Positions 43,289-47,949 of a stretch of DNA of 59,239 nucleotides are shown piece after piece. The position numbers and the translations under genes are program-made. The DNA lies in contig JAVCCC010000021.1 in assembly GCA_030765785.1 (NCBI GenBank), positions 1-59,239 on the forward strand, given 5' to 3'. Below the pieces are notes generated by a model. It ran no database searches. It was given only the letters and a program-made list of their open reading frames with translations, and had not been told where the DNA came from. Origin of the DNA: Candidatus Aceula lacicola. Lineage in GTDB: Bacteria > Omnitrophota > Gorgyraeia > Zapsychrales > Aceulaceae. The stretch's first letter is position 1. The number at the start of each line of letters is the position of its first letter.

Positions 43289-43681
43289 TTATTCTGATGT
43301 TAAAACACCGCCTGTCGTCATTGTAAAAGTTGACGATCCACTTGTGCCTCTTGTGACAGGTTCTGCTTCCAACGTATATCCAGAATCAGTGTCAAAAGTA
43401 CAACCATAATCATAACCAGATACTGTTGTAGAACAGTATGCTGAGTTTAGGTAAGGTGGAGTCGCATCTGTTAATGAGTCAATGTGATCTGGATAATTTC
43501 CAGAATTAGCCGTTGCGAATGTTTCTGCAGCTGTAGAGATTGTACGAAGCGTGCTTTGTGCGAGCGCGTCATTAGCTGAAATCTTTGCCCTAAGTAAATT
43601 AGGGATAGCGATTGCAGCCAGCAAAGCGATGATCGCAACAACGATCATAATTTCAACGAGTGTAAAACCTTTTCTATTCAT
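43289..43681 (-). CDS. pilA: Type IV major pilin PilA-like
   Basis: 130 aa. Prepilin leader MNRKG with cleavage expected after Gly5, then the hydrophobic 'FTLVEIMIVVAIIALLAAIAIP' with Glu5 of the mature protein. A short globular domain contains the C-x10-C loop ('YCSTTVSGYDYGC'), and the C-terminus ends 'MTTGGVLTSE'. Strong promoter, long structured leader, AAGGAGG ribosome binding site and private terminator all mark it as the abundant subunit. Similar to the pilin at 42764-43153. Pseudopilin use in a type II secretion system cannot be excluded. Confidence 0.92.
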   Translation of the reverse strand: MNRKGFTLVEIMIVVAIIALLAAIAIPNLLRAKISANDALAQSTLRTISTAAETFATANSGNYPDHIDSLTDATPPYLNSAYCSTTVSGYDYGCTFDTDSGYTLEAEPVTRGTSGSSTFTMTTGGVLTSE

Positions 43682-43814
43682 AATTCTTACCTCCTTTCAG
43701 GATTAAGAATAAGCTATTCATGAAACAGCTCCTGAAAGAAAGAAAAAACTGAACGTATAATGACGTTTTAAAACTCTTCATTTCAGGATTATTCAACCAA
43801 CAGCTCAAATCCTT
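43682..43814 (-). promoter_or_regulatory. Structured 5' leader of the major pilin mRNA
   Basis: About 133 nt between the predicted start (near 43814) and the pilA ATG. It holds two copies of TAATCCTGAAA (43781-43791 and 43695-43705). Between them is one antisense copy, CTTTCAGGA (43730-43738 on the minus strand), which can pair with either. The second copy abuts the ribosome binding site AAGGAGG (43690-43696), sharing three bases with it. Pairing of the middle element with the second copy would partly hide that site, and pairing with the first would free it. Switch function is inference from the pairing only. Confidence 0.45.
43694..43791 (-). repeat. Duplicated leader element with an inverted copy
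   Basis: Direct repeat of 11 nt (TTTCAGGATTA on the plus strand) at 43695-43705 and 43781-43791. An inverted copy, TCCTGAAAG, lies at 43730-43738. Each direct copy is flanked by similar sequence, including GAGCTGTT and TGAATA, so about 40 nt of leader looks duplicated and diverged. Confidence 0.75.
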
Positions 43815-43820
43815 TGTATC

Positions 43821-43849
43821 ATTCTATCCTTACCCTCCTTCCTTGTCAA
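43821..43849 (-). promoter_or_regulatory. Promoter of the major pilin gene
   Basis: -35 TTGACA (43844-43849, perfect) and -10 TAGAAT (43821-43826, 5 of 6), with a 17-nt spacer on the minus strand. It is a sigma-70-type match. No sigma-54 GG-N10-GC element, the usual pilA control in Pseudomonas, is visible upstream. Confidence 0.8.
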
Positions 43850-43933
43850 ATCGTTTTCAACAAAGATTATCTTTTACCTAATACAAGTATATCACGCAAA
43901 AATAACGTCTACCAAATTAAAAAAATAAGAATA

Positions 43934-44971
43934 TTAATAATTTTTTATGCGGCGCTCAATTTGTTGTTTCTGTTTTTGAGCCCTAGAAAGGTCTTTTTTA
44001 AGCTTTTTAAGTTCGATTTGAAATTTTTTATTTTCTGCTTCAAGCTTTGCGGCTTCAGAACGCAGCCTTTCAACTTTTTCTGTATCAATATGCTGTTTAA
44101 AACTCTGGCTTCTTTCTTCTATTGCAGAAAAATCATCCTGAAGTCCCTGCTTTTGACTCTCGACTTGATCAATTTCACTTTGAAGCACATCTGATTGTTT
44201 TTGATATTGCTCTAAAACAATAGCATGCTCTTTTTTAAAAGAATCTTGCTGGGACAACAAAACAAGAGCATCCTCGTAGAGACTAAGCATTTCTGAATAA
44301 ATTTTCTCATTTTCTACGTTAAGCGTTTGGAATCGCTCACGAAAAGATAAAATCTCTTGATTAAGGTTCTCGATTTCTTCATTCCAATCCTTACGGTCTG
44401 CTTCGCTCATTTCCAAAAGTTCTACAAGCCGAATCTTTTGCCCTTCGTATTGATCAAAAGTTTCCCAATATTCTTTCTGCCCAGACTTATTTCTTTTTTC
44501 TGAAAAACGTATATTCTTCTTAAGCACAGCTATTTCCAATCCCATTCGCTCATTCTGATTCTCTTTTTTCTTGATATCCGCCTTAAGGATGCTAGCCTTT
44601 TCTTCAAAATCTATTTTTCTTTTAATAAAATCACTCAAAATTCTCTCGAGACGAAAAATCTCCTCTCGCATTTCCCCTATTGCTTGCGAAACAGCCCCAT
44701 CTTCAAAACCAAAATTTTCTATCTTCACATTCTCTTTTTCTACTTGCTCTGACAAATAATCTATCTCTTGAGCTAACTGTTTATTTTCTGACAAAACTAA
44801 ATCATTGTCATACGAAAGCTTGTCCATGCTAATTTTGAGCTCAGAAATACTTTTAGCCCAAGAGTCAAAAAAGCTTGGAATAGATGTCTGATATTGCGAA
44901 AATGTATCGCTAGCGAAAAACAAACACAGCGCGACACTCCCAATAATAAGTATAAATAATTTCGTTCTCAT
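43934..44971 (-). CDS. Exported coiled-coil protein of unknown function in the pilus cluster
   Basis: 345 aa. I do not recognise a family. An N-terminal hydrophobic segment ('KLFILIIGSVALCLFFASDTF') acts as signal peptide or anchor. Nearly everything after residue 40 is predicted coiled coil, with dense Glu, Lys, Leu and Gln heptads ('ENKQLAQEIDYLSEQVEKENVKIENFGFE' and 'AAKLEAENKKFQIELKKLKKDL'). No enzymatic motif is visible. It starts 7 nt after pilC and so is probably co-transcribed with the pilus platform genes. A periplasmic scaffold or spacer role is inference. Confidence 0.8.
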   Translation of the reverse strand: MRTKLFILIIGSVALCLFFASDTFSQYQTSIPSFFDSWAKSISELKISMDKLSYDNDLVLSENKQLAQEIDYLSEQVEKENVKIENFGFEDGAVSQAIGEMREEIFRLERILSDFIKRKIDFEEKASILKADIKKKENQNERMGLEIAVLKKNIRFSEKRNKSGQKEYWETFDQYEGQKIRLVELLEMSEADRKDWNEEIENLNQEILSFRERFQTLNVENEKIYSEMLSLYEDALVLLSQQDSFKKEHAIVLEQYQKQSDVLQSEIDQVESQKQGLQDDFSAIEERSQSFKQHIDTEKVERLRSEAAKLEAENKKFQIELKKLKKDLSRAQKQKQQIERRIKNY

Positions 44972-46242: not shown

Positions 46243-47949
46243 TTATTCGGAACTTGCCACTCTAAAAACTTCTTCAATGGTTGTCACTCCAGAAACAAAC
46301 TTTTCAACCATATCATCCCAAAGCGTTGTCATCCCCTGCTTAACTGCATAATCTTTAATCTCCGACGTGGAAGACCCCTTAATCAACATCTCTCGCACAT
46401 GCTCATCTACTTCTAAAACTTCAACAATACCCGTTCGACCATAATATCCTGTTTGCCGACAAAAATCACATCCTTTGCCATGATAAAACTTTGTTCCAGG
46501 CTTAATTTTATCTTTGATATCCTTTAAAACATTATCTAGCAATTTGATTTCTTCACGGCACTTTGGGCAAATCGTTCGACATAATCGTTGTGCACAAATT
46601 GCAATCACACTAGAGGAAACTAAAAAAGATTCAACGCCCATATCAACCAATCGCGTCAAAGCACCAGCCGCATCATTCGTATGCAAAGTCGATAAAACAA
46701 GTTGGCCAGTTAAAGATGCCTTAATAGCAATATCTGCTGTTTCAGAATCGCGAATTTCTCCCAACATAACAACATCTGGACTTTGACGCAAAATCGATCT
46801 TAAACCAGAAGCAAACGTAAGGCCAATATCTGCACGTGCTTGAATTTGCGTAAGACCATCAATAAGATACTCAACGGGATCTTCAACTGTAATAATATTT
46901 TTATCAACCGTATTAAGCTGACTGATGATCGAATAAAGTGTTGTTGACTTTCCGCTTCCCGTCGGTCCAGTGACTAAAATCATTCCAAAAGGTTTAGAAA
47001 TCGCCTCTGTCAATTTCTCCAAAGGTTTCTTAGAAAAACTAAGCCCATCTAGTCCAGACGATAAATTGCTTTTATCAAGAATACGAATAACAATTTTCTC
47101 GCCAAACGTTGTGGGAAGCAACGAAACGCGAAAATCAACTTCTTTTGATGAAAGTCTCATTTTAAAACGACCATCTTGCGGAACCTGCGTCTCTGTAATA
47201 TTAATCCCTGCCATAATTTTAATGCGAACAATAACTGCATTTTGATTTACTCTCGGAATAGTTAAAACTTCTCTTAAAACGCCATCAATGCGATAACGAA
47301 CACGAGCAGAGGTCTCGCTTGGTTCGATGTGAATATCAGACGCTCTTTCCTTTAATGCTTCACGAATAATTAAATCAACCATACGAACAATCGGAGCTCG
47401 CGCGCTTTCTTCAAGATTAATTTCTTGCGCCCCACCTTCTTCTTTCTCATTAATAATTTCAAAATCTTCGATATCAATGTCTCGGCTCACTTCGGCTACG
47501 CTTTCGGCGTCCGCAACACCATAATAATTATCAAGTGCCTGCGCAATCTTAGATTCTTCGCTAATAACCACATCCACATTTTTATTTGTTAATGTTTTTA
47601 AATCATCGACTGCAAAAATATTAAACGGATCCGATAGCGCAACTGTAATTGTTTTTCCAAGTTTCGATATTGGAATGAGATGATATTGACGCGCGATGCG
47701 CGCTGGGATCATTTCTTTAAGCGATGGGTCAATTTTGTATTTAGAAAGATTAATCGTCGGGATATGAAATTCTTTAACAAGAAGACTCAGAAGATCTTGT
47801 TCAGAAACAAAACCTTTTTCAATTAAAATCCTATCAAGTCCGATGCCTTTTTCTTTCTGCAACACCACCGCATCATCAAGATCCTTCTTGCTGATCCCAT
47901 GCGAATGAGCAAGAGCATCTAAAACTTTTTCTTTAATTGTTTTTACCAT
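46243..47949 (-). CDS. pilB: Type IV pilus extension ATPase PilB/GspE (copy 1)
   Basis: 568 aa. Cytoplasmic hexameric ATPase that drives pilin polymerisation. The N-terminal MshEN-type domain covers about 1-145, then the N2 domain ('RVRYRIDGVLREV'), then the motor with Walker A GPTGSGKST at 328-336. The Asp box ('ITVEDPVEY'), Walker B 'PDVVMLGEIRD' near 391-401 and the His box 'LVLSTLHTND' follow. A tetracysteine zinc site is formed by 'CPKC' and 'CDFC'. The start overlaps the stop of copy 2 in TAATG. Confidence 0.95.
   Translation of the reverse strand: MVKTIKEKVLDALAHSHGISKKDLDDAVVLQKEKGIGLDRILIEKGFVSEQDLLSLLVKEFHIPTINLSKYKIDPSLKEMIPARIARQYHLIPISKLGKTITVALSDPFNIFAVDDLKTLTNKNVDVVISEESKIAQALDNYYGVADAESVAEVSRDIDIEDFEIINEKEEGGAQEINLEESARAPIVRMVDLIIREALKERASDIHIEPSETSARVRYRIDGVLREVLTIPRVNQNAVIVRIKIMAGINITETQVPQDGRFKMRLSSKEVDFRVSLLPTTFGEKIVIRILDKSNLSSGLDGLSFSKKPLEKLTEAISKPFGMILVTGPTGSGKSTTLYSIISQLNTVDKNIITVEDPVEYLIDGLTQIQARADIGLTFASGLRSILRQSPDVVMLGEIRDSETADIAIKASLTGQLVLSTLHTNDAAGALTRLVDMGVESFLVSSSVIAICAQRLCRTICPKCREEIKLLDNVLKDIKDKIKPGTKFYHGKGCDFCRQTGYYGRTGIVEVLEVDEHVREMLIKGSSTSEIKDYAVKQGMTTLWDDMVEKFVSGVTTIEEVFRVASSE

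Follow-up and report, generated by a model that had tools for sequence, protein, structure and literature searches.

Pilin gene, promoter and transcription start

The window, i.e., the whole stretch of 59,239 nucleotides analysed here (contig JAVCCC010000021.1 of Candidatus Aceula lacicola), comes from an Omnitrophota genome of 1.5 Mb in 56 contigs. Its minus strand carries a type IV pilin gene (43289-43681) encoding a product of 130 aa with a PF07963 match and the type IV pilin N-terminal motif; its position and its standing as the best-conserved paralogue suggest that it encodes the major pilin. A pilM-like gene (42608-41518) is split over two frames, 42608-42129 and a second frame extending to 41518, which is a frameshift or an assembly error. 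A PilB-like ATPase with an MshEN domain is encoded at 46243-47949. Since MshEN is a known c-di-GMP-binding domain (PMC5013675), c-di-GMP may influence these pili through proteins as well.

The pilin gene is preceded by a sigma-70-type promoter, TTGACA-17-TAGAAT (43821-43849, minus strand), which agrees with the consensus at 11 of 12 positions and has AAGGAGGG as part of its spacer, and homologous pilin genes of relatives have the same promoter arrangement. The promoter position makes plausible a transcription start near 43814 and thus an mRNA leader of about 133 nt (43682-43814, minus strand). The string AAGGAGG within the spacer between the -35 and -10 boxes (43840-43833 in the window) also occurs in the pilin promoters of loci L009, L083, L089, L148, L166, and L150. 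In relatives it extends up to AGAAAGGAGGTGATA, which resembles the complement of the usual 3' end of bacterial 16S rRNA; family f2 has the same string without that promoter around it. In the L038/L108 promoter, an operator-like palindrome, GGGTATCC-N8-GGATACCC, spans the -10 box.

Structural elements of the leader

The sequence-only reading of this DNA had described two copies of TAATCCTGAAA in the leader, with an antisense copy between them able to pair with the first over 8 bp or with the second over 9 bp. This description holds. Both copies are exact, the first (element A) being situated at 43781-43791 and the second (element C) at 43695-43705, with no further exact copies found elsewhere in the window. 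The antisense copy TTTCAGGA (43730-43737) forms the core of element B, CTTTCTTTCAGGA (43730-43742). The A:B and B:C pairings comprise 8 and 9 Watson-Crick base pairs, respectively. When the leader was dinucleotide-shuffled 20,000 times, no 11-nt repeat enclosing an 8-nt antisense segment arose; a looser version of the arrangement appeared in 17 of 5000 shuffles.

The second pairing had been described as partly entering the Shine-Dalgarno (SD) sequence AAGGAGG (43690-43696). It does pair there, but its extent had been underestimated: with G-U pairs counted, the helix comprises 13 bp formed by CUUUCUUUCAGGA (43742-43730) and UCCUGAAAGGAGG (43702-43690) and covers the entire AAGGAGG, so that C together with the SD, TCCTGAAAGGAGG (43690-43702), is a 13-bp complement of B. 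The picture of two alternative hairpins likewise needs to be extended. In addition to A:B, which forms the long hairpin P2, and B:C, the structure includes an outer stem P1 (5' strand UGAGCUGUU, 43799-43807; 3' strand AAUAGCUUA, 43710-43718), a conserved apical motif AACGTCATTATA (43756-43767), and a local SD hairpin UUCUUA...UAAGAA (43684-43709), all on the minus strand. The leader contains no intrinsic terminator before the start codon; the sole terminator-like site between 42600 and 44100 lies downstream of the pilin gene (43265-43235). A short upstream ORF, MNSLFLILKGGKNYE (43674-43721, minus strand), overlaps the pilin start, is not conserved, and is probably incidental.

The folding energy of the leader on the gene strand has a z-score of -3.3. 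In the minimum free energy fold (-40.3 kcal/mol), the long A:B hairpin lies inside P1, and the SD is found in the small local hairpin. The forced B:C fold has an energy of -36.1 kcal/mol. RNA lacking C, as if C were not yet transcribed, already folds into A:B and P1 (-33.3 kcal/mol), and hence the A:B fold would be the first to form. Over the leaders studied, the SD-free fold is favored by a median of 5 kcal/mol (2.3 kcal/mol in the window), and the bases of B used by both pairings overlap with a median of 0.71.

Conservation of the leader in Omnitrophota

Homologous pilins were gathered from three sources: 81 genomes of the order, a public genome collection, and the class. The upstream regions of the Omnitrophota pilins share a common plan: a promoter, an outer stem, a motif of about AACGKYATYATW between a 5' arm rich in purines and a 3' arm rich in pyrimidines (element B), and then the SD. 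The apical motif scored at least 18 in 24 of 208 leaders versus none in shuffles, the motif having first been spotted by eye in leaders that were later used for its scoring.

In the window's family, the three elements are kept in all four genomes (G000-G003). The same 13-bp B:C helix is possible in G002 and G001, and a shorter one in G003. The leader of G002 is 92% identical to that of the window; one compensatory pair (U-A to G-C) distinguishes their local SD hairpins, and the changes in the apical stem preserve pairing. A genome from the window's genus has the same leader DNA as the Candidatus Aceula meridiana locus (L010, L037). In genome-wide searches with a covariance model built from two leaders (R1), the pilin leader was the only strong match per genome of this family, located at 43679-43812 in the window genome. 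Thus, within the family the element serves one gene, the pilin. Beyond the family, R1 recovered only a few leaders, with E-values of 0.01-0.1; the model therefore does not capture the group in its entirety.

Some other leaders have structures of their own. A class-level group (L257, L260, L268, L271, L277-L279, L281, L283, L263) has its own conserved outer stem adjoining the SD, with 17 consensus pairs, 6 of them changed on both sides. In another group (L046, L053, L062, L065, L067, L076, L089, L090, L092), a AAGGTGAC...GTCAATCTTACCTT closing stem and a CCTT-aga-AAGG SD hairpin form two mutually exclusive pairings.

Covariation of the two alternative pairings

RNAalifold yielded no consensus pairs for 30 diverse leaders aligned with MAFFT. 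Because MAFFT aligns bases rather than helices, and because the leaders are too diverged for ordinary alignment, we instead swapped the arms between species: if a pairing is maintained, the arms of one leader should pair better with each other than with arms of other leaders. In sets of 54-88 non-redundant leaders, with 5000 swaps each, Z-scores ranged from -12 to -15 for A x B and from -5 to -6 for B x C, with no swap (0/5000) reaching the native value in either case, versus -0.1 to -0.6 for the control of B with reversed C and -1.2 to -1.9 for the control A x C. The per-leader Wilcoxon p-values for B x C are modest (0.002 to 0.016), which indicates that a subset of leaders drives the signal.

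The B x C signal persists without the window's family (Z -4.9, 0/5000). Without f1, the A x C control reaches Z -2.7; hence the effect of composition is not zero, and part of the background is compositional. For families f3-f7 only, B x C gave Z -4.2 (0/5000) with both controls null, and f7 alone gave Z -3.9 (0/5000). In named contigs the signal is weak (Z -1.6), and in f2 it is no better than the reversed-C control (Z -2.1 vs. -2.9). Outside the order, pairing of the leader with C is near the control (Z -2.0 vs. -1.3), and pairing of the 5' strand with the bases immediately preceding the SD, i.e., the outer stem, is conserved (Z -4.0). The B:C claim was accordingly dropped for the class as a whole, whose leaders give no clear signal.

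Two mutually exclusive folds, one of them occluding the SD and both conserved, as expected of a translational riboswitch, were therefore found in families f1 and f3-f7 only. The geometry of a translational switch proposed by the sequence-only reading is thus upheld in part: the elements are kept in G000-G003, A:B covaries strongly throughout the order, and B:C covaries in f3-f7, but neither in f2 nor beyond the order does B:C exceed the control. Conservation and covariation in relatives had been set beforehand as the test on which the idea of a switch could fail; the test was run, and the idea survived it.

A putative translational switch and its alternatives

Comparison of the leaders indicates that they very probably constitute a conserved structured RNA. 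We further consider it probable, on somewhat weaker grounds, that the leader is an undescribed cis-regulatory RNA acting as a translational switch that would be open by default and closed on loss of A:B; for the window's family and f3-f7, the comparative data make this reading well supported. In the nascent RNA, A would pair with B in the long hairpin P2 within P1, with the AACGKYATYATW motif near the tip. While B is held by A, the pilin SD would be free or confined to the weak local hairpin, and translation could start. If A:B were blocked or melted, B would form a helix with the SD and the adjoining bases, of 13 bp in the window, that prevents ribosome binding. The choice between the folds might be set by a protein, a small molecule, or a physical condition at the motif hairpin. 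Both folds would presumably occur in cells, with the SD-free A:B state predicted in silico to be the default, and some factor may act at the apical motif.

The leader might instead be a constitutively structured one, in which A:B and P1 are kept for the stability of an abundant mRNA or for an open start region, and B:C is a by-product that switches nothing. This would fit A:B and P1 being the strongest signals by far, the failure of B:C to rise above control level in f2 and in leaders from beyond the order, and the greater stability of the SD-free fold (by a median of 5 kcal/mol). A by-product, however, would not fit B to the SD flanks of its own species over those of others, a preference that f3-f7 do show, their controls being null, and the conservation of the apical motif exceeds the needs of a stability hairpin. 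We consider this explanation unlikely.

A direct exchange of the same two folds with temperature or ions, with no bound factor, would make the leader an RNA thermometer or ion sensor. The similar energies of the two folds around the SD agree with such behavior, but the conservation of the 12-nt apical motif would then need a separate reason, and the explanation seems quite improbable. Even less credible is leader-peptide attenuation or translational coupling, where ribosomes translating the upstream ORF (43721-43674) would open the SD hairpin and allow the pilin to start, as in erm-type attenuators. The ORF does have its own AGGAG, located within B and 7 nt upstream of the ATG, and it overlaps the start of the pilin gene; in G003, a similarly placed ATG opens a frame that closes with an ATGA spanning the pilin start. 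However, G002 has no start codon there despite its 92% identical leader, and the only nearby ORF in G001 has 4 codons and lies 17 nt from its SD; the upstream ORF was rejected as a leader peptide given its absence in G002. Equally far-fetched is a promoter element acting in DNA, with the motif (YATYAT, like a -10 box) marking a second promoter: TATTAT-like bases do occur in the apical motif, but the candidate was rejected, since A, upstream of the motif, covaries with B, downstream of it, so that an RNA structure would require both to be on a single transcript, and a strong TTGACA/TAGAAT promoter already lies upstream.

Returning to the translational switch, a broader interpretation can be put forward tentatively. 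The leader might represent a new riboswitch or protein-responsive RNA class found across Omnitrophota before the main pilin gene and sensing a signal via the AACGKYATYATW hairpin; in many species it would follow a c-di-GMP-I riboswitch, which would place pilus production under two gates, one in transcription and one in translation. That the class is a ligand-sensing one is a similarly guarded suggestion; a conserved motif is present, and ligand binding is putative. If true, a switch of this kind, conserved and acting on the translation of the main pilin, would add an RNA family whose ligand or protein partner could be tested for directly. Almost no members of Omnitrophota have been cultured, and pili are one of the features associated with how they attach to other cells; type-4a pili have been listed among symbiosis-related genes (PMC10066038). 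With c-di-GMP-I riboswitches placed in tandem with this leader in relatives, one may ask why a single gene should be gated twice.

Comparison with known RNA regulators

At gathering scores, Rfam 15 contains no family matching the leader, the only matches in the window and the relatives' loci being to tRNA and c-di-GMP-I. A c-di-GMP aptamer at the window pilin was considered and rejected: the c-di-GMP-I models (RF01051, RF03167) have no match at gathering score in the window leader and none up to an E-value of 10 in 43550-43950, and none of the three c-di-GMP-I aptamers of the window genome is situated at the 43681-43289 pilin. Upstream of homologous Omnitrophota pilins, such aptamers were found at 13 of 20 loci in a first scan and at 10 of 20 in a second set. 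In these relatives they lie upstream of the promoter and outside the leader, e.g., L176 has the aptamer (69-153), its own terminator, and then the promoter and leader.

The sequence-only reading had known of no described RNA element of this form upstream of pilin genes. None of the known ones has it, and none of this kind was found in the open-access literature, but other RNA elements in that position are known, namely c-di-GMP riboswitches: class II riboswitches control the type IV pilin operon of C. difficile (PMC11477304). Like the leader, c-di-GMP-I and c-di-GMP-II riboswitches are RNA elements situated before pilin genes, and they control pilin expression, as the leader would. The c-di-GMP-I riboswitch, however, is a separate aptamer, from which the leader differs in matching no family model and in acting beside the SD without an intrinsic terminator. 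What is new here is an element next to the SD that is different from the known c-di-GMP riboswitches.

Erm-type attenuators have repeated and antisense segments that form mutually exclusive hairpins around the SD, and they require a conserved stalling leader peptide. The leader likewise has repeated and antisense segments and exclusive hairpins around the SD, but its upstream ORF is not conserved, lacking a start in G002 and differing in G001 and G003; no conserved short leader ORF was found among these three genomes. In translational riboswitches that sequester the SD, such as preQ1-II and SAM-II, an anti-SD strand pairs with the ribosome binding site in one of two exclusive folds. The leader shares with them the two exclusive folds, one of which has an anti-SD strand on the ribosome binding site; it differs in having no match in Rfam 15 and in that its aptamer-like part is only the motif-bearing hairpin, with a putative ligand. 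Finally, in the autoregulatory leaders of ribosomal proteins, a hairpin bound by a protein governs whether ribosomes can reach the start site for an abundant protein. The pilin leader resembles them in having a hairpin, here with a hypothetical protein partner, that would likewise govern start-site accessibility for a protein made in abundance, and it differs from them in that the gene it precedes encodes a pilin.
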